DNA from: Eubacteriaceae bacterium ES3
GTDB lineage: Bacteria > Bacillota > Clostridia > Eubacteriales > Eubacteriaceae
Direction of reading: 5' to 3'
Length of the DNA: 64,000 bases
NCBI GenBank assembly: GCA_030586155.1
Contig: CP130741.1
Location: 552,680-616,679, forward strand
Of the stretch, positions 5,154 to 40,103 are shown piece by piece. Both the position numbers and the translations under genes were made by a program. Numbering within the stretch: position 1 is the first letter of the stretch; the number at the start of each line of letters is the position of its first letter. The notes under the pieces are model-generated. The model was not told where the DNA came from, ran no database searches, and worked only from the letters and a program-made list of their open reading frames with translations.

Positions 5154-6092
5154 ATGATCAAAAAACAAAGCAATCTGATAAATTACTGGAATCAGTTTAT
5201 CCAAACGGGTGTTGTTCATGAAAATGTCCGAAAAGATATTGCTGAGGGCTGGAAGAGGTGCAAAAAAAATGGAATCGACTATCATTCAGCTATGGGCCTT
5301 GAAGTGGGGAGAGAAGAATTTACTCAAAAGCTGGAATATAATAAGGCGTTCATTCAAATTTCCAAAAGCGTAATGCAAAAAGCCTATCATACCGTTGCAA
5401 ACCTGGATACATTAGTTTTTATTACTGATGCCGAAGGCTGTATTCTGGCACAATATAAGGATTCGAGCACCTCTGTTCCGGCTAATGAAACGAAACTGCT
5501 GCCAGGCTATCGTTGGAGTGAGGACTTAAATGGAATGACCTCAATGGATTTGGCGATGCGGCTTGACAAACCGGTTCGTATTATTGGCGCGGAACACTTT
5601 TGTGTCAACCAGCAGATATGTGCCGGTTCTTCAGCTCCGATCCATGACGATTCCGGAAGAATAATCGGGAGTTTGAACTTAATCAGCCTTTTGGAGCAGT
5701 ACAGTAAGCATTCCTTGGGGATCGTAACCGCCGGAGCCGAACTAATCGAGAACCAGATGAGATTGGAACTGGCTTTGAGATTATTTAAAACGACTTTTAA
5801 TACAATGTCTGAAGGGATGATTTTGTTCGATCAGAATTATAAGATTGAAGAGATGAATGATAGTGCCAAAATGATTTTAGGGCTTTCCGAAGCAGGGCTT
5901 TATGAGTTTGATATTCGCAAATCGCTTCAATTTGATAAGCTTGAGGAATTGCTGCATAAAAAAGATAAAGAGCTGAATTTCCGCTTGAACAGGCGAACAA
6001 TACACTGCATCGGAGATGTGGAAATTGTCGAACTGAGCCACAATAGAATTTTTTATGCCATTGTATTTAAAGAGGCTAAAACCGGTCAATAA
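5154..6092 (+). CDS. Sigma-54 activator, sensory half (GAF/PAS); gene split by frameshift
   Basis: A 312-aa N-terminal portion of an AcoR-type enhancer-binding protein. The opening (WKRCKKNGID) matches the family's N-terminal helix. A GAF-like ligand domain follows (about residues 65-190, with ADLNGM-like LNGMTSMDLA), then a PAS-like segment (about 205-300, MSEGMILFDQNYKIEEMND). The frame stops at 6092, just where the linker to the AAA+ domain should continue. The continuation is encoded in the +1 frame from about 6070 (PVNKMINKMTGN). The ATG at 5154 follows AGGAGG. Either the gene is a recent pseudogene, the base is a sequencing error, or the two parts are expressed separately. It lies next to the sigma-54 operon starting at 7268. 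Confidence 0.75.
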   Translation: MIKKQSNLINYWNQFIQTGVVHENVRKDIAEGWKRCKKNGIDYHSAMGLEVGREEFTQKLEYNKAFIQISKSVMQKAYHTVANLDTLVFITDAEGCILAQYKDSSTSVPANETKLLPGYRWSEDLNGMTSMDLAMRLDKPVRIIGAEHFCVNQQICAGSSAPIHDDSGRIIGSLNLISLLEQYSKHSLGIVTAGAELIENQMRLELALRLFKTTFNTMSEGMILFDQNYKIEEMNDSAKMILGLSEAGLYEFDIRKSLQFDKLEELLHKKDKELNFRLNRRTIHCIGDVEIVELSHNRIFYAIVFKEAKTGQ

Positions 6093-7095
6093 AATGATTA
6101 ACAAAATGACCGGTAACTCAGCGATATATACCTTTGAGGATATCATTACCGAAGACCCCAAAATGCTTGATCTGATCAGGTATGCAAAAAAAATTGCTTC
6201 GATCGATTGTTGTGTCTTAATCACTGGTCCCAGTGGTACCGGAAAAGAACTTTTTGCCCATGCTCTGCATAATGAAAGCAGTCGCGCTAAGGGGCCTTTT
6301 ATCGCCCTTAACTGCGCCGCTCTGCCGGCTGATCTGGTTGAAAGCGAACTTTTTGGCTATGAGGCAGGTGCCTTTACAGGTGCCAAACAGGGAGGGCAAA
6401 CAGGAAAAATCGAGCTTGCTGATGGCGGGACCCTCTTTTTAGATGAAGTGGGAGAACTGCCGCTTAATATTCAGTCTAAGCTTTTAAGGGTTCTGGATAA
6501 TCACCGGATTATTCGGTTGGGCGGAAAAATGGAGAAGGAAATTGATATCCGGATTATCACAGCGACTAATCGGGATCTGGAAGAAGATGTAAAAAATAAA
6601 AACTTTCGATTGGATTTACTGCATCGGATCAATACCATCACGCTGGTAATTCCTCCTTTGTGCGAGAGAAAAGGTGATATTGTTCTTTTAAGTCAGTATT
6701 TTTTACAGCGACTGAACCGGGAAAATGATCGAAAAATATATACAATTGATGAGAGAGTGCTGGCAGCTTTTTCGGCCTTTGATTGGCCGGGAAATGTTCG
6801 ACAGTTACAGAATATGATGGTTCGTTCTTTTTGTATTAGTGAAGGCTCTAAATTATCAATAGAGGATTTACCCGATACGATAAGAGGAGTGGAGATGAAA
6901 GCGAAACCGATTAGAGTACCGACTGCCACCAGTAGAATTGAGGACGCTGAAAAAGCAGCAATTATGGAAGCGATAGAGAACTGTGGTGGTAATATGACGG
7001 CTGCAGCCAGACAACTGTCCATTGCTAAATCGACACTCTATCGAAAGGTTAAGCACCACAATATTGTTGTGGAAAAGATTTTTAGAAACAAGTAA
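6055..7095 (+). CDS. Sigma-54 activator, AAA+ and Fis-type DNA-binding half
   Basis: The C-terminal part of the same enhancer-binding protein, in the +1 frame relative to 5154-6092. It has Walker A GPSGTGKE, the sigma-54 contact motif GAFTGA, Walker B GGTLFLDEVGEL, the WPGNVRQLQN region and a Fis-type helix-turn-helix (MTAAARQLSIAKSTLYRKV). All motifs needed for sigma-54 activation are intact. The first ATG (6055) lies inside the upstream reading frame and lacks a clear ribosome site, so independent translation would more likely use an ATG near 6094 or not occur at all. A single extra base near the AAAA at 6072-6077 would explain the split. The probable target is the -24/-12 promoter at 7196, about 100 bp downstream. 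Confidence 0.8.
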   Translation: MPLYLKRLKPVNKMINKMTGNSAIYTFEDIITEDPKMLDLIRYAKKIASIDCCVLITGPSGTGKELFAHALHNESSRAKGPFIALNCAALPADLVESELFGYEAGAFTGAKQGGQTGKIELADGGTLFLDEVGELPLNIQSKLLRVLDNHRIIRLGGKMEKEIDIRIITATNRDLEEDVKNKNFRLDLLHRINTITLVIPPLCERKGDIVLLSQYFLQRLNRENDRKIYTIDERVLAAFSAFDWPGNVRQLQNMMVRSFCISEGSKLSIEDLPDTIRGVEMKAKPIRVPTATSRIEDAEKAAIMEAIENCGGNMTAAARQLSIAKSTLYRKVKHHNIVVEKIFRNK

Positions 7096-7122
7096 ACGTA
7101 GCAAAGCGAAACGCATCGTTCG

Positions 7123-7152
7123 AACAACCGTCCCATTTTTGGGACGGTTGTT
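7123..7152 (+). terminator. Intrinsic terminator
   Basis: AACAACCGTCCC (7123-7134) pairs perfectly with GGGACGGTTGTT (7141-7152) around a six-base loop, followed by a T-rich run (7151-7164). It ends the activator transcript before the sigma-54 promoter. Confidence 0.92.
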
Positions 7153-7195
7153 TTTATTTTTTTTGTTAAAAGCTTGTCAAAGCGTCAAAAAATAG

Positions 7196-7212
7196 TTGGC
7201 ATGATAGTTGCG
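7196..7212 (+). promoter_or_regulatory. Sigma-54 (-24/-12) promoter
   Basis: TTGGCATGATAGTTGCG matches the sigma-54 consensus TTGGCAC-N5-TTGCW, with GG (7198-7199) and GC (7210-7211) exactly 12 bases apart. It lies 55 bp upstream of the CooC-like gene. An imperfect inverted repeat with AACG/CGTT ends (7095-7120) could be the activator site, but that is weak. Confidence 0.85.
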
Positions 7213-7267
7213 TATTAGGTGTTGTATGAAATTGAGTTTGTTTAATGACTCAAGAAAGGAAAAATAA

Positions 7268-8029
7268 ATGGAGGATACAAGAATCATCGCCTTTTCAGGA
7301 AAAGGCGGTGTGGGAAAAACAAGCCTGGCAGCATTGACCGTTAGGCTTCTCATCGAAGAATATCCTGAGGCCCGGGTTTTGGCAATTGATGCAGACCCAG
7401 CTGTAGGTTTAGCAACTGCTCTAGGTGTAGAGGTGACCCATACAGTTGATGATGTCAGAAAGAAATTTGTCGAACATGTAGAGCAGGGAAAAAAGCGCGA
7501 AGCAATTTCTTTTTTGAATGAAGCCCATTATGAAATTACCGACAGCATTGTTGAAACGGAAAAATTTGCTTTTTTGGCTATTGGCCGTCCTGAAACCGCC
7601 GGTTGTTATTGTTCAGTCAACAGTTTTTTAAAGGAAACCATCAGTGTTTTAACAAAAGAATTTGACTTTGTGGTTATTGATGGAGAGGCGGGTATTGAAC
7701 AGGTCAATCGCCGGGTGATGGAAAAAGTTACCGATCTGATTCTGGTCAGCGATGCCAGTAAAAAAGGGATCGGAGTCATTCAAACGATCCGGGATGTGGC
7801 AAAGGATTTAGGAATGTACAATAAATCTGGTGCAATCATTAATCGGGTCAAAAATGATACGGTTAAAGGCTTGGTTGATACCGGAGATATTATGGTTCTA
7901 AATTTTATCCCGGAAGACGAAGACTTGAGTATGATGGATGTTAAGGGAAATAGTCTTTTACAACTGGATGTCAAAGCTTTGGCTTTAAAAGGGCTTAGAG
8001 AAGCTTTGATTCAAATAAATGTAATTTAA
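7268..8029 (+). CDS. CooC-like P-loop ATPase (metal-center maturation family)
   Basis: A 253-aa MinD/CooC-family ATPase. The deviant Walker A GKGGVGKTS (residues 11-19, signature Lys12), the DADPA switch motif near residue 41 and VVIDGEAGIE near 135 are intact. A C113-x-C115 pair (GCYCSVN) sits at the position where CooC of Carboxydothermus binds Ni/Zn at its dimer interface. CooC/AcsF proteins help insert nickel into CO dehydrogenase or acetyl-CoA synthase. Here no CODH gene is adjacent; instead the gene leads an operon of dehydratase-type iron-sulfur proteins. I infer a maturation or energising role for those proteins, or for the CxxC protein at 11991. The ribosome site is AAGAAAGGA. Confidence 0.85.
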   Translation: MEDTRIIAFSGKGGVGKTSLAALTVRLLIEEYPEARVLAIDADPAVGLATALGVEVTHTVDDVRKKFVEHVEQGKKREAISFLNEAHYEITDSIVETEKFAFLAIGRPETAGCYCSVNSFLKETISVLTKEFDFVVIDGEAGIEQVNRRVMEKVTDLILVSDASKKGIGVIQTIRDVAKDLGMYNKSGAIINRVKNDTVKGLVDTGDIMVLNFIPEDEDLSMMDVKGNSLLQLDVKALALKGLREALIQINVI

Positions 8030-8049
8030 GAAAGAAGAGGACGATTGAT

Positions 8050-9255
8050 ATGAAAGATCTTAAGCATATCCACTTTTATACTTCTCTGCTGGAAGAGGCC
8101 AACAATGAACTGGTCAGAGAAGCAAAAAAGCAGGGTGGAATAGCTGTTGGCTACACTTGTTATTATATTCCAGAAGCACTTTTGAATGTGGGAAAAGCCT
8201 TCTCAGTAAGGCTTAGAGCGCCTAAAACAGGAAGTCTTGATATCTCCCAATACTATATGGGGAGCCTAAATTGCTCATTTGTCAGGGCCCTTCTTGAACG
8301 GGCCTTTGAAGGCGGCTATAACTTTTTGGACGGCTTTTTTTCCAGTGAAACCTGTCAGCAGATGAATAGACTTGTGGAAAATATTTATGAATTGAAACTG
8401 ATTGGCAATGAAAGTTTTTATCACTCTATTATTGATGCCCCTTTGAAAGTAAGCCCACATGGAACCAAGCATTACATTAATCAGATTAGAACCAGATTTT
8501 TAGAACCCCTGCGCGATCAGTTTGGGATTGATATTTCAGAAACAGCCATTCGTAAAGCAGTAGAAGAGCACAATCGGATGTGTGCTATTTTTGAGGAAAT
8601 CTCTGAAATGAAAAAAGCTGACAACCCGCGTATTACAGCGACAGAGTTTCATATTCTAAATCTGGTCTCCTATACTTGTCCGACCAGCCTGATTCTGCCT
8701 TATCTGGAAGAAACACTGGTTGAACTTAAAAAGAGAAAACCGGATGATAAAAAGAGTTACCGTGCCCGTGTCGTGGTTGTCGGTTCGGAGATGGATGATT
8801 ACGGCTTTACTGAGCTGATGGAGTACTGTGGCGCCTATGTGGTTGCTGATCGCTACTGCTTTGGATCCACTCCTGGACGTCAGCAGATTCCAGTCAGAGA
8901 AGACGAAGATATTGTTGAAGCGGTCTGTCGCTTTTATCTGGAAAGTAATCAGTGTCCCCGTTTTATGTCTCAGGAAAAAATTCAGGAACGTCGGAATGTG
9001 GTTAAAGGTCTGTATGAAGATTACAATGCGGACGGAATTATCTACGAGCAGATTAAATTCTGTGACTACTGGGGATATGAACGGGCTGTGGCCTCGCATG
9101 TGCTACATGAAGAAATGGGTGCGCCGACAGTCGCTCTGGACCGAGAGTATTCAGTTCAGGCATCCGGCCAGTTAAAGACAAGGGTTCAGGCTTTTGTCGA
9201 AAGTCTGGAAATCAAAAAAATTCAGAAAGAAAAAGAAGAGGGGGATAAGAAATGA
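8050..9255 (+). CDS. 2-hydroxyacyl-CoA dehydratase/benzoyl-CoA reductase-type FeS subunit (HgdB-like)
   Basis: A 401-aa protein of the HgdB/FldC/BadE superfamily, cytoplasmic, expected to bind an iron-sulfur cluster reduced by an ATP-driven activator. Conserved features include GYTCYYIPEALL (Cys37), NCSFVRALLE (Cys75), SETCQQMNR (Cys102), and later ADRYCFGSTPGR and KFCDYWGYE. Family members include dehydratases, benzoyl-CoA reductases and double-cubane proteins of unknown substrate. Sequence alone cannot say which applies here. Its last four bases overlap the start of the next gene (ATGA), so the two products are probably translationally coupled and form a complex. Confidence 0.85.
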   Translation: MKDLKHIHFYTSLLEEANNELVREAKKQGGIAVGYTCYYIPEALLNVGKAFSVRLRAPKTGSLDISQYYMGSLNCSFVRALLERAFEGGYNFLDGFFSSETCQQMNRLVENIYELKLIGNESFYHSIIDAPLKVSPHGTKHYINQIRTRFLEPLRDQFGIDISETAIRKAVEEHNRMCAIFEEISEMKKADNPRITATEFHILNLVSYTCPTSLILPYLEETLVELKKRKPDDKKSYRARVVVVGSEMDDYGFTELMEYCGAYVVADRYCFGSTPGRQQIPVREDEDIVEAVCRFYLESNQCPRFMSQEKIQERRNVVKGLYEDYNADGIIYEQIKFCDYWGYERAVASHVLHEEMGAPTVALDREYSVQASGQLKTRVQAFVESLEIKKIQKEKEEGDKK

Positions 9256-10979
9256 CAGTGACAAGCAATAATCTGAAGGATAACGCTAAACTTTTCGGTG
9301 AAGTTTTTTCGGAAGCGATCAAGATGGAAATAGCCGACTATGATCGTAAAGAGATTTTAAGTGCCTTAAAAACAAAGTTTGATCCCAATAAATTAAAACC
9401 ATTGCTGACCGGTCAGGTTTCGATTAAAGAAGCGGTAGATCAGTACCTGACCGGAAATGGCCTGCAGGATATCATTGAAGATAAAACTGGAATCTACAAG
9501 CACCGAGAGTGGCGGGGTCCGGTAGATACACTTTATGATTACGGAAAATGGCTGGAGTTGTGGGGAATTCTTGGAAAATGGCTGTTAAAGCACCCGGTTA
9601 CCAATGTTTCAGCCCTGCTGCGTTACCGCTGGATGGCCATCTACCTGACCACACCATCATTTTTTGACCATAATGTACCAGGTTTTAAAGGGACCATGCT
9701 TAGGGCAGGTCGGAATAACCTAAATACAATTGCCAGACTGCTGACGGCCAACATGGAAGAGCTTTTCGGTGCCGACCGGAATATCAATCCCGGTAATGAG
9801 AAGGCTAAAAAATATATTTGCATCGATGCTTATATGCCAAAACTGATTGTTGCCGGATTTGCGGAACATCAGGGGGTTTTACAGCATCTGGTGCCCCATT
9901 ACCTGCCTTCAATCATCGATCACCGATCTCCCGAACATTATCTGGATGTTACTGAGAGTTATGGTGTTCCGGCCGATGTCTGCGGTTTGCCATCAATGGA
10001 ATGTGGAGTAGCGATTGAAGACGACTTTCCAAATATCGGCTGTTGCTATATTTCCTCCAATATGCCCTGTGATGGCTCGATTATGTCAAGTACTATCCTG
10101 GATCGCCGTTTTAAGCTGCCTACCTATGTATTGAACACGCCAATGCGGCATACCCGTGAGGATACCCAGGAATATGCGGTAGAGGAGTTAAAAGAATGTA
10201 TCAAGTTCATGGAAGAACATACCGGCGAAACTTATAACTACCAACTTTTACGGGAAGCCTGTGAACGCTGGAATGAGCAGAATGCTCTGCGCCTGGAAAA
10301 ATGGGAAATGAACGCTACAGATAATCCGACACACTATGGGGCTTCCAACTGGATGTATCGGGTATTCACTTATCAGGACAGTAGCGGAAATCCGGTAGCC
10401 ATTAAAAATGACCGCAAGGTTAATAAGATTATGCGAAAAAGTCTGGGCAAGCCAAGAAAATATCCGATAAAACCCCGTCACCGGGCAATTGTCTGGAACA
10501 CCATTGCCAATATGTACAGTGCCTTGGATGAATGGATGCTAAACTGTTGGGGGATAGAAGCAGTTTTTCAGTTTATTGAAAATCAGGGACATCGACCGAT
10601 TGACACTTCTTCAGTCGATTCCATGCTGTCTGGAGTCGCGAAGGTTATACAGGAAGCAACCATGAGGGTTCACAGTAAAGGTGGCTATAACGCCTATACG
10701 GATGATCTTTGGGTGAAGGTGGAAGAATATAATTGCGACATGATTGTGATGTTTGACCAGATTTCCTGTAAGGGACCGGCAGCAGTTGCTGGTTTAGTCG
10801 AGGAAGAGGCCCGCAGAAGAGGTATTAAACTGGTCTGGCTCAAGCAGGATCTGGTTGATGCCCGAACCATTAGTCGTCGGGATATGCGGGATCAGATCAG
10901 CACCTATATGGAAGCGGTCATGAATGAAACCCCTCTTGATCCGACGCTTAGAGATTTTGATGACAGTATTAGCTGGTAA
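9252..10979 (+). CDS. 2-hydroxyacyl-CoA dehydratase-family protein, large subunit
   Basis: A 575-aa paralogous member of the HgdB-like superfamily, longer than the usual 380-430 aa dehydratase subunit because of an N-terminal extension of about 150 residues. Cysteines cluster in VCGLPSMEC (about residues 247-255), NIGCCYISSNMPC (about 264-276) and QISCKGPAA (about 508). The C-terminal DARTISRRDMRDQISTYMEA resembles the terminal helix of this family. It overlaps the preceding 401-aa subunit by four bases, suggesting a heteromer. No CoA-transferase, acyl-CoA dehydrogenase or other fermentation enzyme is nearby, so the substrate is unknown and a non-CoA substrate is possible. Confidence 0.8.
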   Translation: MTVTSNNLKDNAKLFGEVFSEAIKMEIADYDRKEILSALKTKFDPNKLKPLLTGQVSIKEAVDQYLTGNGLQDIIEDKTGIYKHREWRGPVDTLYDYGKWLELWGILGKWLLKHPVTNVSALLRYRWMAIYLTTPSFFDHNVPGFKGTMLRAGRNNLNTIARLLTANMEELFGADRNINPGNEKAKKYICIDAYMPKLIVAGFAEHQGVLQHLVPHYLPSIIDHRSPEHYLDVTESYGVPADVCGLPSMECGVAIEDDFPNIGCCYISSNMPCDGSIMSSTILDRRFKLPTYVLNTPMRHTREDTQEYAVEELKECIKFMEEHTGETYNYQLLREACERWNEQNALRLEKWEMNATDNPTHYGASNWMYRVFTYQDSSGNPVAIKNDRKVNKIMRKSLGKPRKYPIKPRHRAIVWNTIANMYSALDEWMLNCWGIEAVFQFIENQGHRPIDTSSVDSMLSGVAKVIQEATMRVHSKGGYNAYTDDLWVKVEEYNCDMIVMFDQISCKGPAAVAGLVEEEARRRGIKLVWLKQDLVDARTISRRDMRDQISTYMEAVMNETPLDPTLRDFDDSISW

Positions 10980-11011
10980 ATAAAAAAATAAAAAAGGATA
11001 GGTAAAGATAA

Positions 11012-11806
11012 ATGAGTAAATATTTTGGTGGATGTGATGTTGGATCAACCTACGGGAAATGTGTGATTATTAATGAAAAGGGTGATATTTGCGGACACGC
11101 GATTGTGCGCAGTAAAATCAATCCGGTCGAGACAGCAAATTTTGCCCTGACCGAGGCGATGGACGGAATTGATGATTTGAATAACGTTGAAGCCCTTTCT
11201 TACCTTGTTGGTACCGGCTATGGCCGTAACAAGGTGCCTTTTGCGGATGAAAACATTTCAGAGATTAGTTGTCATGCTATGGGCGTTCATGTGACCAATC
11301 CTGACGTAACCGGTATTATTGATGTTGGCGGCCAGGATGTTAAAGGGATTGCTGTTGATGAAGACGGAACCGTTAAAAATTTTGCCATGAATGATAAATG
11401 TGCCGCTGGTACCGGGAAATTCTACGAGGCTATGGCCCGAGCCTTTGAAATGAGTCTGGACGATTTCTCCAAGCTGTCTTTGACCGCTGAAAATGTCATT
11501 CCGATTACCGCCCAGTGCACAGTATTTGCTGAATCAGAGGTTATCTCCCTGGTTGGTGACGGAAAACCACGAGATGAGATTGCCGCAGGTTTGCAGATGT
11601 CGATTGCCAAACGTTGCTTTGTCATGGCAAAAAAAGCCGGCACCGACGGTCTGATTACAATGACTGGCGGATGTGCTAAAAACGATGGTCTGGTTCATGC
11701 CATTGAGCATGTATTAAAGCTTAAAATTGCAGATTTAAAAACTGATCCACAGTTGATGGGTGCTTTGGGCGCTGCCGAATATGCACGACAAAAAGGTTTG
11801 GCATAG
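11012..11806 (+). CDS. BadF/HgdC-family activator ATPase
   Basis: A 264-aa ASKHA-fold ATPase. GGCDVGSTYGK is the phosphate-1 loop, DVGGQDVKGI the phosphate-2 loop and TGGCAKNDG the adenosine motif. Cys130 (NDKCAAGTGKF) and Cys169 (TAQCTVFAESE) match the two Cys per subunit that hold a bridging [4Fe-4S] cluster in the HgdC dimer. Such activators use ATP hydrolysis to push a low-potential electron onto a dehydratase or reductase partner. The two preceding genes are the obvious partners. Corrinoid activators are a different family, so that role is less likely. The length is normal for HgdC. Confidence 0.92.
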   Translation: MSKYFGGCDVGSTYGKCVIINEKGDICGHAIVRSKINPVETANFALTEAMDGIDDLNNVEALSYLVGTGYGRNKVPFADENISEISCHAMGVHVTNPDVTGIIDVGGQDVKGIAVDEDGTVKNFAMNDKCAAGTGKFYEAMARAFEMSLDDFSKLSLTAENVIPITAQCTVFAESEVISLVGDGKPRDEIAAGLQMSIAKRCFVMAKKAGTDGLITMTGGCAKNDGLVHAIEHVLKLKIADLKTDPQLMGALGAAEYARQKGLA

Positions 11807-11817
11807 GAGGGTAAAAG

Positions 11818-11985
11818 ATGAGTAATTTTATAAATCTATTAACAATTACAGGAAAAGTCTTGGCCTGTTTCTTTGGGATTACCTTTATTATCTACTGGTT
11901 TAATCTCGATAGTAAACTTGTACATAAATTGTTCCCGGTTTTCAATGCATATTATGACCGCTTGCCTAGAGACAGAAGGCTGTAA
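11818..11985 (+). CDS. Small single-pass membrane peptide (55 aa)
   Basis: A short open frame with a very strong ribosome site (AGGAGGGTAAAAG then ATG). The product has one hydrophobic segment (about residues 6-26, ending FIIYWF) and a basic, aromatic C-terminal tail ending LPRDRRL. It sits 11 bp after the activator ATPase gene and 5 bp before the next gene, fully inside the operon. The spacing and ribosome site argue that it is real. It could tether the redox complex to the membrane or act as a regulator. I recognise no family. Confidence 0.7.
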   Translation: MSNFINLLTITGKVLACFFGITFIIYWFNLDSKLVHKLFPVFNAYYDRLPRDRRL

Positions 11986-11990
11986 AAGAA

Positions 11991-12701
11991 ATGGATATTT
12001 TCGATCAATATGCCGAAAAAATAGAAAATAGGCTGGGGATTGAGACATTACAGCGATTGGACAGGGAGCAGAAACTTTGGACAACAGCGGATAAGAATAC
12101 CTTCATCATGGAAAGGGATACCGCTTTGGAGCTGGGAGGATATCCCAAAGAAAGCCTGAATTTGATGGTTTCTTCACAAAATTTTGATTTCAAAAACCAG
12201 GGTGGGGTGTATCTTATCGGTGATCCGGCACTTTTATCTGGAAAAGCCAAACACCTTTCATTTGGTAAAATCGTCCTGATTAAAAGTAATGCAATTGAAA
12301 CTGAAGGGGTATATGATTATCTGAAGTCTTTGGAATTTTCGGATATTCGTTTGCACTTTACGGATGTGATGGTGCGGATGTCTTCCGAGAAGTTTTTTAC
12401 CAATCTGCGGATTGGTAAAAAAGCCATGAAAAATGGTTTTACCCTTGGGAGAATGGGGGCATCCATGTATCAAGGTTTTCTGGCCTTGCCGGAGGTTGAG
12501 GATGTCAAAATAATCATGATAGTGGGAGAGAGTCCTTTGTATAAAGAATTTCTGCCTATTGCTGAAAAGATTAAAGATGCCACTTCAGCACTCAATACGA
12601 TGTTTGATGGAATTAATCTGGATTGCCAGTCCTGTCAGCTCAGTGATATCTGTGATGAGGTTGAGGGGCTTAAAAAAATGCATCAATCTGTTAGTGCGTA
12701 A
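11991..12701 (+). CDS. Hypothetical protein with C-terminal CxxC(x5)C motif
   Basis: A 236-aa soluble protein, last gene of the sigma-54 operon. A mixed alpha/beta domain fills most of it (VYLIGDPALLSGK, KIVLIKSNAI, KIIMIVGESP look like strand-loop elements). The C-terminus has CQSCQLSDICDEVEGLKK, a three-Cys arrangement suitable for a metal or Fe-S centre, at about residues 213-230. I recognise no family with confidence; the Cys tail vaguely recalls subunits of CODH/ACS-type systems, which would fit the CooC-like ATPase at the head of the operon, but this is only an impression. It starts five bases after the small membrane peptide gene. Confidence 0.65.
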   Translation: MDIFDQYAEKIENRLGIETLQRLDREQKLWTTADKNTFIMERDTALELGGYPKESLNLMVSSQNFDFKNQGGVYLIGDPALLSGKAKHLSFGKIVLIKSNAIETEGVYDYLKSLEFSDIRLHFTDVMVRMSSEKFFTNLRIGKKAMKNGFTLGRMGASMYQGFLALPEVEDVKIIMIVGESPLYKEFLPIAEKIKDATSALNTMFDGINLDCQSCQLSDICDEVEGLKKMHQSVSA

Positions 12702-12704
12702 AGA

Positions 12705-12743
12705 AAAAAATCGGCAGGTCTACAGAGCCTGTCCGATTTTTTT
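12705..12743. terminator. Intrinsic terminator after the sigma-54 operon
   Basis: AAAAAATCGG-CAGG (from 12705) pairs with CCTG-t-CCGATTTTTTT (to 12743) with one bulged base and T and A tails on opposite sides. It may serve both the operon and the convergent helicase gene. Confidence 0.85.
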
Positions 12744-12782
12744 ATTGTTTTAAAAATTAGTCTTCAAGATTTGAAGGTGTTT

Positions 12783-15140
12783 TTAATCTTCTTGTCCTTG
12801 CCAGAAGGCATTGGAAAAATTTTTCACATCATCTGTCGTTGTAACGATTTGTTGGGGAAACCAGTCTTGGGGAAAGAGTTTCTGATAGCGGTTATGGGAA
12901 AAACGACTGTCGATCAGTAAGATTAGGCCTTGATCGGTTTCAGTTCTGATGACTCGACCGGCGGCCTGGAAAACTTTGTTCATCCCCGGATAGACATAGG
13001 CGTAGTCAAAACCTTGGTGGTTTTTCAGGTTAAAATAGTCTTTAATCAGATCGCGTTCGCTGCAGATTTGTGGAAGTCCCACACCGATAATTATTGAGCC
13101 GATTAGAGAATCGCCAGCAAGGTCAACGCCTTCAGAAAAAATACCACCCAGGACGCAAAAGCCGATCAGTTCAGATTCTGAATCGATTCTGAATTGGTTC
13201 AGAAAAATCTCGCGATCACCTTCAGTCATTTCCGCTTCCTGTTTTAAACAGTTATGCTCAGGAAAACGTGCAATAAAATTCTCATAAACCATATTCATAT
13301 ATTGGTAGGACGGAAAAAAAACAAGATAATGACCGGTTTTAGAAGAAACAGTGGCATCAATTAGAGCTGCTATATAGTTCTTTGTGTTCTCCCGTTCAGT
13401 ATACTTTGTTGAAATGTTGTTGGCAATCAGAAGAGCGCGCCTTTTTTTATTAAAAGGTGATGGAAAGAGCAGATGGTAGTTTTCTTCTTTACCCCCCAAT
13501 AACTCAGAGTAGTAAGAGAGTGGCGATAGGGTGGCAGAAAAGAAGAGGGTAGCCTCAGCTGTGTTTAAAGATTGGCTTAACAGCTTGGAAGGATCTAGGC
13601 AAAAGCGTTTAATTCTGGTATCATTGCCACTATTTTCGACATAAGTGATATATCGCTCATCTAAAAATTCTCCAGTTCTCAAATAAGCAAGGGCAAGGAA
13701 ATAAAAAGCTAAGAGCTCAGCATGGTAAGGATGGGATTCATTTTCTGTCAGCCATTCTTCGGCTGTCGAAATAAAATGATAGAGATGCCCTTCGAGTTCT
13801 TTAGGCTCTTCACTAAGAACAGACAGGGATTTGTTTTCGCTGTTCTTTTTTAAGTTGAGCATCAGACTGTTTAGGTTTTTTAATGATGAAAGAACTTTTT
13901 TATCTTCGCCTTTAAGCTGGCGCTTGAGATCCAGAATCATTTTTTTGCTGAGTTGGGCAGAAAACATTTCCCGGCCCCGATCCACCAGATTATGAGCTTC
14001 ATCAATTAGAAATACCGTGTTTTTACTATCCCCTAAAAAATGTTTTAAAGAAACCCGGGGGTCAAAGACATAATTATAATCGCAGATAATGACATCACAA
14101 AAGGCGGCTAAATCCAGTGAAAACTCAAAGGGACAGACCCGATGTTTTCGGGAAAAATCTTCAATAAGCCTCCGGGTGATCTGGTTATTGGAGTTGAGCA
14201 GATCATATAAGGCATCATTGACCCGATCGAAATGGCCTTTGGCGTAAGTGCAGTGCTCGGGGCTACAAATACGCGTTTCTAAAAAACAGATTTTATCCTT
14301 TGCTGTCAGGGTGATGCTTTTAAGGAGTAGTCCTTTATTAGCCATGGTGTTTAGTGATTCTTCTGCCACTTCCCTGACGATGGTTTTGGCGGTTAAATAG
14401 AAAATTCGCTCAGTTTGATGCTCTGCGATAGACTTTATGGCAGGAAATAGGGTTGAGATGGTTTTGCCGATGCCGGTAGGGGCCTGGATAAATGTTTTTT
14501 GTTTTTCGACGATGGTTTTATAAACTGAGATGGCCAGTTGGCGCTGTCCTTTGCGGTAGTTTGGATAAGGAAAGGACAGGTTTTTGATGGACTGATTGCG
14601 GGTAATTCGTGAACTTGTTTCAAGTTTAGCCCAATTAAGGTAGTGGTCGAGCAGGGTGTGAAAATAAGTTTTAAGATCTGATAAGAGGTATATTTCACGA
14701 AAGTGTTGGACAGTTTCGGTTTCCAGTTGAAAATAAGTTAGCTGCACACCGATTTGGGAAAGGTTATTTTGAGTCGCAAAGATAAAAGCGTAGATTTTTG
14801 CCTGTGCCCAATGAACAGTGTAGCCAGAAGCTGGCAGATCTTCCAGGGGACGGGTGGTCGATTTTATTTCATCGATAACGGGAAATTCGTCGTGATTGGT
14901 AAAAATACCATCGGCGCGCCCTTCAATTATAAAATTAAAGCTTTTATAGCTAAGCGAATATTTAAGAGGGACTTCTGCCAGGTAGTCACTTTCAGAATAA
15001 GATTTTTGCACTTTCTGATGAGCTTTTGTACCTTCCACAGCGCGTTGGCTTTTCATAAATTGTGAATCAATATCTCCGTGACGATGAAGAAACTCCACAA
15101 AGCTTCTGACTGATAACTTAATTTCTGTTAGATTATCCAT
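12783..15140 (-). CDS. DinG/Rad3-like ATP-dependent DNA helicase with N-terminal nuclease-like domain
   Basis: A 785-aa superfamily 2 helicase. An N-terminal PD-(D/E)xK-like segment (GRADG followed by DEIKST, about residues 75-100) precedes Walker A APTGIGKTIS and the DEAH box. Four Cys between them (CFLETRIC, EHC, VCPF) fit the XPD-type [4Fe-4S] domain. C-terminal motifs include FFPSYQYMN, GVDLAG and QAAGRVIRTETD. Such proteins unwind damaged or structured DNA 5'-3'. The start is the ATG at 15138-15140 with AAAGGA upstream; the longer in-frame start lies in the preceding gene's terminator. The DNA repair role is inferred from the family. Confidence 0.88.
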   Translation of the reverse strand: MDNLTEIKLSVRSFVEFLHRHGDIDSQFMKSQRAVEGTKAHQKVQKSYSESDYLAEVPLKYSLSYKSFNFIIEGRADGIFTNHDEFPVIDEIKSTTRPLEDLPASGYTVHWAQAKIYAFIFATQNNLSQIGVQLTYFQLETETVQHFREIYLLSDLKTYFHTLLDHYLNWAKLETSSRITRNQSIKNLSFPYPNYRKGQRQLAISVYKTIVEKQKTFIQAPTGIGKTISTLFPAIKSIAEHQTERIFYLTAKTIVREVAEESLNTMANKGLLLKSITLTAKDKICFLETRICSPEHCTYAKGHFDRVNDALYDLLNSNNQITRRLIEDFSRKHRVCPFEFSLDLAAFCDVIICDYNYVFDPRVSLKHFLGDSKNTVFLIDEAHNLVDRGREMFSAQLSKKMILDLKRQLKGEDKKVLSSLKNLNSLMLNLKKNSENKSLSVLSEEPKELEGHLYHFISTAEEWLTENESHPYHAELLAFYFLALAYLRTGEFLDERYITYVENSGNDTRIKRFCLDPSKLLSQSLNTAEATLFFSATLSPLSYYSELLGGKEENYHLLFPSPFNKKRRALLIANNISTKYTERENTKNYIAALIDATVSSKTGHYLVFFPSYQYMNMVYENFIARFPEHNCLKQEAEMTEGDREIFLNQFRIDSESELIGFCVLGGIFSEGVDLAGDSLIGSIIIGVGLPQICSERDLIKDYFNLKNHQGFDYAYVYPGMNKVFQAAGRVIRTETDQGLILLIDSRFSHNRYQKLFPQDWFPQQIVTTTDDVKNFSNAFWQGQED

Positions 15141-15174
15141 AAAAATTCCTTTTGTTTTTAGACCAATAAGAGAA

Positions 15175-15201
15175 AAAGGGTGCACATTTGTGCAGCCCTT
15201 T
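15175..15201 (-). terminator. Intrinsic terminator between DUF389 and helicase genes
   Basis: AAAGGG-TGCACA pairs with TGTGCA-g-CCCTTT, followed on the minus strand by five T. It overlaps the DUF389 stop codon and precedes the helicase start, so the helicase likely has its own promoter or depends on read-through. Confidence 0.75.
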
Positions 15202-35728: not shown

Positions 35729-35752
35729 GGGATGTTGTGTGGGCGTACAACA

Positions 35753-35829
35753 AAAGGCTTCCCTCCGCTGGTATTAACCAGATCAGGTAATAAGGGTAAA
35801 TCTCAGCACATGGCTCCCCCAGCTTTTAC
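35753..35829 (-). promoter_or_regulatory. TPP (THI-box) riboswitch aptamer
   Basis: Reading the minus strand, the conserved TPP aptamer segments occur in order: GGGGGAGCC, CTGAGA, ACCCTT, ACCTGATCTGG, TAATACCAGCG and GAGGGAAGC. It precedes thiT and ends in the hairpin at 35707-35728, giving repression when thiamine pyrophosphate is plentiful. Confidence 0.95.
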
Positions 35830-35871
35830 TATGGGACTATCCTAACTTGTAAACAATAAAATGTCAAGGCT

Positions 35872-39008: not shown

Positions 39009-39113
39009 AAAATGGTGGATGATTTCCACATCTGAAAAAGATTACATTTTTAACGTATTCAAAAGCCCTTAAAATGGTGGAAAAGTTTCTTGAAAACTTG
39101 GCACGGGACTTGC
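39009..39113 (+). promoter_or_regulatory. Sigma-54 promoter with candidate upstream activator sites
   Basis: TTGGCACGGGACTTGCG (39098-39114) is a near-perfect -24/-12 promoter, with GG (39100-39101) and GC (39112-39113) 12 bp apart. AAAATGGTGGA occurs at 39009-39019 and again at 39071-39081. The first copy is followed by TCCAC (39025-39029), giving a GTGGA-N5-TCCAC dyad, a likely binding site of the divergent regulator. Confidence 0.9.

Positions 39114-39170: not shown

Positions 39171-40103
<933 letters not shown>

Follow-up and report, generated by a model that had tools for sequence, protein, structure and literature searches.

A 64,000-nucleotide stretch of the 3.39-Mb genome of Eubacteriaceae bacterium ES3 (contig CP130741.1, positions 552,680 to 616,679 of the forward strand; hereafter the window) carries six genes on the + strand at 7268-12701, in the order CooC-HgdB1-HgdB2-HgdC-mp55-CdhCl according to the listing of open reading frames (ORFs). 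The products of this cassette probably form an ATP-dependent reductase that is tethered to the membrane, belongs to the benzoyl-CoA reductase (BCR)/2-hydroxyacyl-CoA dehydratase/double-cubane cluster protein (DCCP) superfamily and comes with its own metal module, which derives from acetyl-CoA synthase (ACS) and is served by CooC. The cassette brings together two areas of metalloenzyme biology that usually stay apart: Birch-type reductases driven by ATP, and acetyl-CoA synthase, a nickel enzyme. Its new element is an ACS-derived three-cysteine protein that works outside the carbon monoxide dehydrogenase (CODH)/ACS system; the reductase as such is a variation on a known type. The six genes are:

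7268-8029, + strand: CooC-like P-loop ATPase, 253 amino acids (aa); matches CooC in the PDB; CxC at C113/C115
8050-9255, + strand: HgdB1, BzdN/DCCP-like subunit, 401 aa; matches BzdN in the PDB; six double-cubane cysteines
9252-10979, + strand: HgdB2, MbdO/BzdO-like catalytic-type subunit with N-terminal extension, 575 aa; cluster cysteines 244/273/506
11012-11806, + strand: HgdC-type ATP-dependent activator, 264 aa; TIGR00241; C130/C169
11818-11985, + strand: mp55, one-helix membrane peptide, 55 aa; conserved tail
11991-12701, + strand: CdhCl, ACS A2-domain protein, 236 aa; CxxCx5C at 212/215/221

Reductase subunits and activator

Pfam and NCBIfam place two of the genes in HGD-D and the HgdC gene in the activator family, in agreement with a first-pass annotation of the window that had named two HgdB-like iron-sulphur proteins and an HgdC-type activator. 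Conservation was read from alignments in which the window is one of the rows; for every family but mp55, only copies with at least 75% of the length of the window protein were kept, and two loci were left out (L017, and L019, which repeats L020). HgdB1 aligns best in the PDB with BzdN (3.5e-28). Its cysteines 37/75/102/270/302/338, invariant in 75/75 rows and in 11/11 further relatives, align with BzdN Cys36/73/100/263/293/327, which are reported as the ligands of an [8Fe-9S] double cubane (PMC11971306). This BzdN/DCCP-type set of six ligands occurs only in the 401-aa subunit and not in HgdB2, a division of roles between the two proteins that the first-pass annotation had not drawn. The best NCBIfam match of HgdB1 is NF040772 at 140 bits, below the curated cut-off of 350.

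HgdB2 is closest to MbdO in a profile search (2.9e-12). When its model (pLDDT 79, with the first 70 residues poor) was compared by Foldseek, MbdO-type chains ranked first (9gai_E, 9gai_A and 9g87_A), followed by HadB and BzdO. The cysteines C244/C273/C506 are invariant (82/82 rows and 11/11 further relatives) and align with those of MbdO, as in the three-cysteine catalytic cluster of the BzdO Cys95/128/380 type. Two other cysteines, C265 (80/82 rows) and C432 (82/82), are both missing from four distant copies, and C265 also from two gut paralogues; they were rejected as a ligand set tied to CdhCl because three HgdB2 copies of the CdhCl-bearing genomes G304 and G634 lack both. The second subunit had been called unusually long. 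At 575 aa it is, but the length is not peculiar to the window and is owed to a clade-wide N-terminal extension, with 509-575 aa among the aligned copies and paralogues of 621 aa.

HgdC scores 205.7 bits against TIGR00241 (cut-off 125.4), is 74-91% identical to 15 relatives, and keeps in 56/56 rows the cluster cysteines C130 and C169 already picked out in the first reading, all as in an HgdC-type activator. The small peptide mp55 represents a conserved family, with a best-19 hydropathy of at least 1.89 in 74/74 rows and a conserved tail pattern, FNLD...YD...RD.RL.

A trimmed acetyl-CoA synthase and the CooC-like ATPase

As judged from profiles and a predicted structure, the 236-aa protein CdhCl is a fragment of ACS comprising the A2 domain and part of the A-cluster, without the CGC nickel site. 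The window protein by itself matched Pfam CdhC at E 0.021 only and gave no PDB match as a single query, so a family alignment was needed. Pfam CdhC is matched by 52/53 aligned relatives at E up to 1 (best 2.4e-14), and with an E-value limit of 10 the family profile retrieved 14 PDB sequences, every one an ACS (best 5.6e-10, ACS residues 335-482). The AF2 model (pLDDT 88) gave 23 Foldseek matches under 0.001, again all ACS, and a VIA Z of 16.9 for ACS versus 4.8 for the best other fold. Profile, Pfam and structure comparison agree on the central ACS domain, which is named A2 (PMC11474084); the excerpts of open-licence literature consulted contained no support for CoA binding by this domain.

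The CxxCx5C motif (C212/C215/C221), which the first-pass annotation had noticed although the kinship to ACS escaped it, is kept in 54/54 rows, and DCxxCx5C together with R129 and R140 is invariant in 53 CdhCl sequences. In a MAFFT alignment with the genome's own AcsB, the three cysteines fall on the first three A-cluster cysteines, and the fourth cysteine and the CGC site find no counterpart. The CGC motif is the nickel site of ACS; in the Moorella enzyme the residues are numbered Cys506/509/518/528 and 595/597. The window protein ends 15 residues past the third cysteine and has no complete A-cluster; with the fourth cysteine and the CGC site missing, its identity as a true ACS was rejected. 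In most of 60 genomes of a distant group the CdhCl profile weakly matches long frames resembling true AcsB, a built-in positive control. Two true AcsB genes lie a few kb apart elsewhere in the window genome (G000:C1:2745653-2752104; L100 and L101), with nearly identical C-terminal halves and diverged N-terminal parts.

The ATPase finds CooC as its best PDB match (3kje, 1.3e-15). It has the deviant Walker A motif GKGGVGKT, and C113/C115, the CxC pair singled out at first reading, align with the CxC pair at the dimer interface of CooC1 and are present in 57/57 rows. Because CooC is described as a nickel chaperone in the cited excerpts (PMC9164220, PMC6006190), the metal handled here could be nickel. 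The CooC1 crystal structure holds zinc at Cys112/Cys114 and the Rhodospirillum CooC protein is said there to bind nickel poorly (PMC6006190); the metal may also be zinc, or the chemistry purely iron-sulphur. We found CODH (TIGR01702, E 1e-10) in only two hosts of the cassette, Acetobacterium dehalogenans and G585, and none in 28/30 host genomes, whose completeness is not stated; incompleteness could explain single absences but hardly all 28. CooC is therefore probably not there to serve a CODH, and a general role as CODH accessory was rejected. Around the cassette itself, among the ORFs at 5154-15185, there is no CODH or CoA-transferase gene, as had been observed before.

Co-occurrence across genomes

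The first-pass annotation had proposed a gene-neighbourhood search, and its outcome is strongly positive. We scanned 84,980 species genomes with the HgdB2 alignment, found 131 relatives and examined the best 80 of the 131 loci; the scan is built on two peptide patterns, and its counts do not measure abundance. HgdB1 lies upstream of HgdB2 at 70/73 testable loci, and downstream of it mp55 is present at 65/68 and HgdC at 52/71. All six genes occur at 40/56 fully flanked loci, by which a chance neighbourhood was rejected; 11 of the 56 have only HgdB1 and mp55 beside HgdB2 and 5 have other sets. Counting all 80 loci, 49 hold the six genes, 45 in the order of the window and 4 with CooC moved behind mp55. 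At L088 two cassettes stand head to tail, one of them without HgdC.

The main hosts, not recognised in the earlier reading, are gut Clostridia without detected CODH: mostly metagenome-assembled genomes whose titles name gut or rumen Clostridia, with single Treponema, Erysipelotrichaceae and Bacteroides titles. The nearest named relative is A. dehalogenans DSM 11527, with 87% identity of the 575-aa protein; as the cassette is conserved in this cultured strain, its function is open to experiment. Of 40 genomes in the family, just two, the window genome and G535, carry a close copy of HgdB2, and relatives at 23-25% identity occur in 4 further genomes and at a second place in the window genome. 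As a single query, which is less sensitive than the profile, CdhCl found 2/148 genomes of the class and 2/398 of the phylum, each time the window genome and one other. Free-standing CdhCl genes are found in 4/60 distant-group genomes (G304 included), and all four adjoin HgdC and CooC; in G634 the gene belongs to a run in which HgdB1 and HgdB2 each occur twice and HgdC three times.

A possible shared helper set for several reductases

The arrangement in gut genomes suggests that CdhCl, HgdC and CooC form a trans-acting module for several HgdB pairs. Ten genomes that we label Mogibacterium-type (6/10 are titled Mogibacterium) have 4-6 HgdB2 matches each, some of them contig-end fragments, that share exactly one CdhCl, one close HgdC (about 541 bits, the next activators scoring at most 199) and at most one CooC (one in 7 genomes, none in 3, at 1e-20). 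The three genomes without CooC have just a fragment of HgdB2 beside CdhCl, probably cut off by the end of the contig, and a gap in the assembly is thus the likely reason for the absence of CooC. In three Mogibacterium-type genomes an HSP90/HtpG-like gene, recognised by eye, directly precedes the central cassette, and several HgdB1-HgdB2 pairs lie nearby (L158-L160, L162).

Satellite HgdB1-HgdB2-mp55 units adjoin varied enzymes: a fusion of a flavin enoate reductase and a short-chain dehydrogenase/reductase (SDR), a tocopherol-cyclase-like protein, aldehyde:ferredoxin oxidoreductase (AOR), iron alcohol dehydrogenase (Fe-ADH) and an amidohydrolase. This variety suggests several substrate-specific reductases served by one activation and maturation set. 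At three loci (L026, L031 and L037) a satellite reductase has as neighbours the tocopherol-cyclase-like protein and the fusion of flavin enoate reductase and SDR, which is about 1000 aa long; with such neighbours, the substrate of this reductase is possibly lipophilic. With the cassette in many gut and rumen anaerobes, some with 4-6 catalytic-type subunit matches, these organisms probably carry out strong reductions of a class not recognised so far.

Linkage of CdhCl, good though not perfect, was followed in 28 genomes, 6 chosen with CdhCl in the locus and 22 with split loci; a full CdhCl lies elsewhere in 15 of the latter. One split case, G585, has an HgdB1-HgdB2-HgdC-mp55 locus without CdhCl and CooC (L124, L038) and, elsewhere, a true AcsB with a CooC/AcsF-like gene, as well as CODH.

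Proposed mechanism and alternatives

We infer an electron path by analogy with BzdNOPQ. Ferredoxin would reduce the HgdC homodimer, in which C130 and C169 of the two chains would bind the [4Fe-4S] cluster. Driven by ATP hydrolysis, electrons would move one at a time up to the [8Fe-9S] double cubane in HgdB1, where two could be stored and passed to the [4Fe-4S] cluster of HgdB2 (C244/C273/C506), and the substrate would be reduced at HgdB2 at very low potential. Together, mp55 and the N-terminal extension of HgdB2 may hold the complex at the membrane. CooC, presumably a CxC dimer of the nickel type, would charge the three-cysteine site of CdhCl, and the CdhCl-CooC pair could mature a reductase metallocluster, or keep it active, in trans. 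The first-pass annotation had offered a new low-potential reductase with a specially matured metal site or a double-cubane-type enzyme; an ATP-driven double-cubane type accompanied by a metal-handling ATPase is borne out, and the specially matured metal stays putative.

More tentatively, the CdhCl-CooC pair might build a new hetero-metal site (for example Ni-Fe-S), descended from the A-cluster, inside a double-cubane ATP-driven reductase of gut Clostridia without detected CODH, for hard-to-reduce and possibly lipophilic substrates at the membrane. If true, such a site would add another type to the nickel chemistry known from the CODH/ACS lineage.

Several observations weigh against the main reading, a membrane-tethered reductase with an ACS-derived metal module. 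At least one cassette gene is absent from 16/56 fully flanked loci, and 7/22 split-locus genomes have no full CdhCl (1 has a contig-end fragment, 1, G585, the true AcsB only, and 5 nothing). The distant clade with CdhCl and CooC has no detected mp55 and lacks C432, so the membrane part is clade-specific. BzdNO made in E. coli carried the double cubane (PMC11971306), so that, in general, a dedicated CooC or ACS-like helper is not required for this fold. A control with classical double-cubane genes favours the main reading with respect to CooC but hardly bears on CdhCl. At 30 such loci, each from a different genome and taken from 43 matches above the NF040772 cut-off, HgdC was present within 1.5 kb at 23/30 and CooC at 0/30; CdhCl was absent too, but in the window it lies 2.7 kb from HgdB1, beyond the 1.5-kb flanks. 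Relative to A. dehalogenans, a one-base frameshift near 6077 interrupts the sigma-54 activator next to the window's cassette; the frameshift may be real or a sequencing error, and the two halves of the gene show comparable levels of silent and of amino-acid-changing codon differences. Lastly, elsewhere in the window genome a second HgdB pair is accompanied by a CooC-like gene but not by CdhCl, so that CooC may serve HgdB-type enzymes more widely. That locus (G000:C1, about 3,121,800-3,131,600; L188) has its own CooC-like ATPase and two activators, one of them over the BzdQ cut-off (420.7 versus 380.2 bits), together with CoA-ligase-like and CoA-transferase-like genes and, in between, two transposase-like ORFs seen by eye; from its sequence it is possibly a class I benzoyl-CoA-type reductase in a relative of Acetobacterium.

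CdhCl might instead belong to the reductase itself as a subunit for catalysis or substrate binding, either with a second active site, possibly holding nickel inserted by CooC, or with the A2 domain positioning a CoA or thiol substrate. The recurrence of the same cassette at 40 of the 56 full loci, the invariant DCxxCx5C, R129 and R140, and the ACS homology would fit such a subunit. One CdhCl per several HgdB1/HgdB2 pairs suits a shared helper better, however, and CdhCl has neither the CGC nickel motif nor the fourth A-cluster cysteine; we consider this role unlikely. Somewhat less likely again is an iron-sulphur electron carrier that feeds HgdC, with CooC only aiding cluster assembly and no nickel involved. 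The CxxCx5C cluster site and the sharing of one CdhCl and one close HgdC in trans speak for a carrier; against it, the reductase genes of A. dehalogenans and of L037 already have ferredoxin-like ORFs (by eye) as neighbours, and CooC is described as a nickel chaperone, though with the zinc and weak nickel binding mentioned above. It is highly improbable that an ordinary 2-hydroxyacyl-CoA dehydratase/BCR family member lies by chance beside a remnant of CODH/ACS accessory genes: HgdB-type proteins are common (50/291 genomes of the class match NF040772 at 1e-20), but the gene order is kept at 49/80 loci, mostly in genomes without detected CODH, and the HgdC-CdhCl-CooC core is conserved in a distant lineage.

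Comparison with known systems

Like class I BCR (BzdNOPQ, MbdONPQ), the cassette combines a double-cubane N subunit, a three-cysteine catalytic O subunit and an HgdC-type ATP-driven activator. Unlike them, it has one activator gene in place of two, a long N-terminal extension on HgdB2, and mp55, CooC and CdhCl in addition, and it includes no CoA ligase or ring-degradation gene. A plain class I BCR was rejected, as no NCBIfam equivalog cut-off is reached (TIGR03190 94/454, TIGR02260 15/487 and TIGR03192 168/380 bits). The [8Fe-9S] ligand set and the HgdC-type partner recall DCCP and DCCP-R, but the cassette enzyme is heteromeric; a plain DCCP was rejected because the NF040772 cut-off is missed and none of the 30 classical genes has the CooC found here. 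The (R)-2-hydroxyisocaproyl-CoA dehydratase HadBC/HadI shares the fold of HgdB2 (TMt 0.82 to 3o3m_A) and the activator type, whereas HadC has no cysteine at the aligned position of HgdB1 C270; to our knowledge, CooC, CdhCl and mp55 are not part of that system. With AcsB/CdhC, CdhCl shares the A2 domain and the start of the A-cluster cysteine motif; in contrast to them it has no A1, little of A3 and neither the fourth cluster cysteine nor the CGC site, and it occurs in genomes without detected CODH.

The idea of a reductase with dedicated nickel chaperones has a parallel in a putative isoprene reductase operon (isr) of Acetobacterium wieringae, which has such chaperones and a Cys6 cluster site (PMC10134865). 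It encodes a different oxidoreductase with HypA/HypB and ferredoxin, and the excerpt names no HgdB, HgdC or ACS fragment (PMC10134865). Among the open-licence PMC papers listed, we found no publication on the combination of CooC, an HgdB pair, HgdC and an ACS fragment.

Promoter, regulator and neighbouring genes

The cassette is preceded by a regulator gene and a promoter and followed by a hairpin:

5154-6092, + strand: N-terminal GAF-PAS portion of the sigma-54 activator; next ORF in another frame
6055-7095, + strand: sigma-54 activator, AAA+ and Fis-type helix-turn-helix part; PF00158, PF02954
7122-7153, + strand: terminator-like hairpin 3' of the regulator
7197-7211, + strand: -24/-12 (sigma-54) promoter TGGCAT-N5-TTGC, perfect match, TGGCATGATAGTTGC
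12713-12733, + strand: terminator-like hairpin 3' of the cassette; consensus match only

The first-pass annotation was correct in placing a -24/-12 promoter before five packed genes and a 55-aa membrane peptide: the site is perfect and the ORFs are as it described them. From sequence alone, the promoter and the adjacent enhancer-binding protein, frameshifted in the window, are those of a sigma-54 operon. The site is conserved in A. dehalogenans about 100 bases behind an intact regulator (L019:3574-3588), where the activator is one continuous ORF of 645 aa. Perfect -24/-12 matches number 2 in the window versus 0.25 expected; the second, at 39099-39113, lies just 5' of an ORF at 39183. Terminator-like hairpin matches in the region are not commoner than in shuffled sequences (9 versus 8.4).

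In A. dehalogenans a ferredoxin-like ORF (by eye), AOR and Fe-ADH precede cooC; all three are absent in the window, where the promoter is directly 5' of cooC. AOR is a neighbour in three settings: in A. dehalogenans and gut satellites (by Pfam) and in G605 (by eye). Pairs of acyl-CoA dehydrogenases adjoin two distant loci, in G634 (by eye) and in G304, where the NCBIfam matches of both score far under every cut-off; around the G304 copy (L163/L164) no benzoyl-CoA pathway genes were recognised by eye. Elsewhere in the window, a thiamine pyrophosphate riboswitch lies at 35743-35830 on the - strand.

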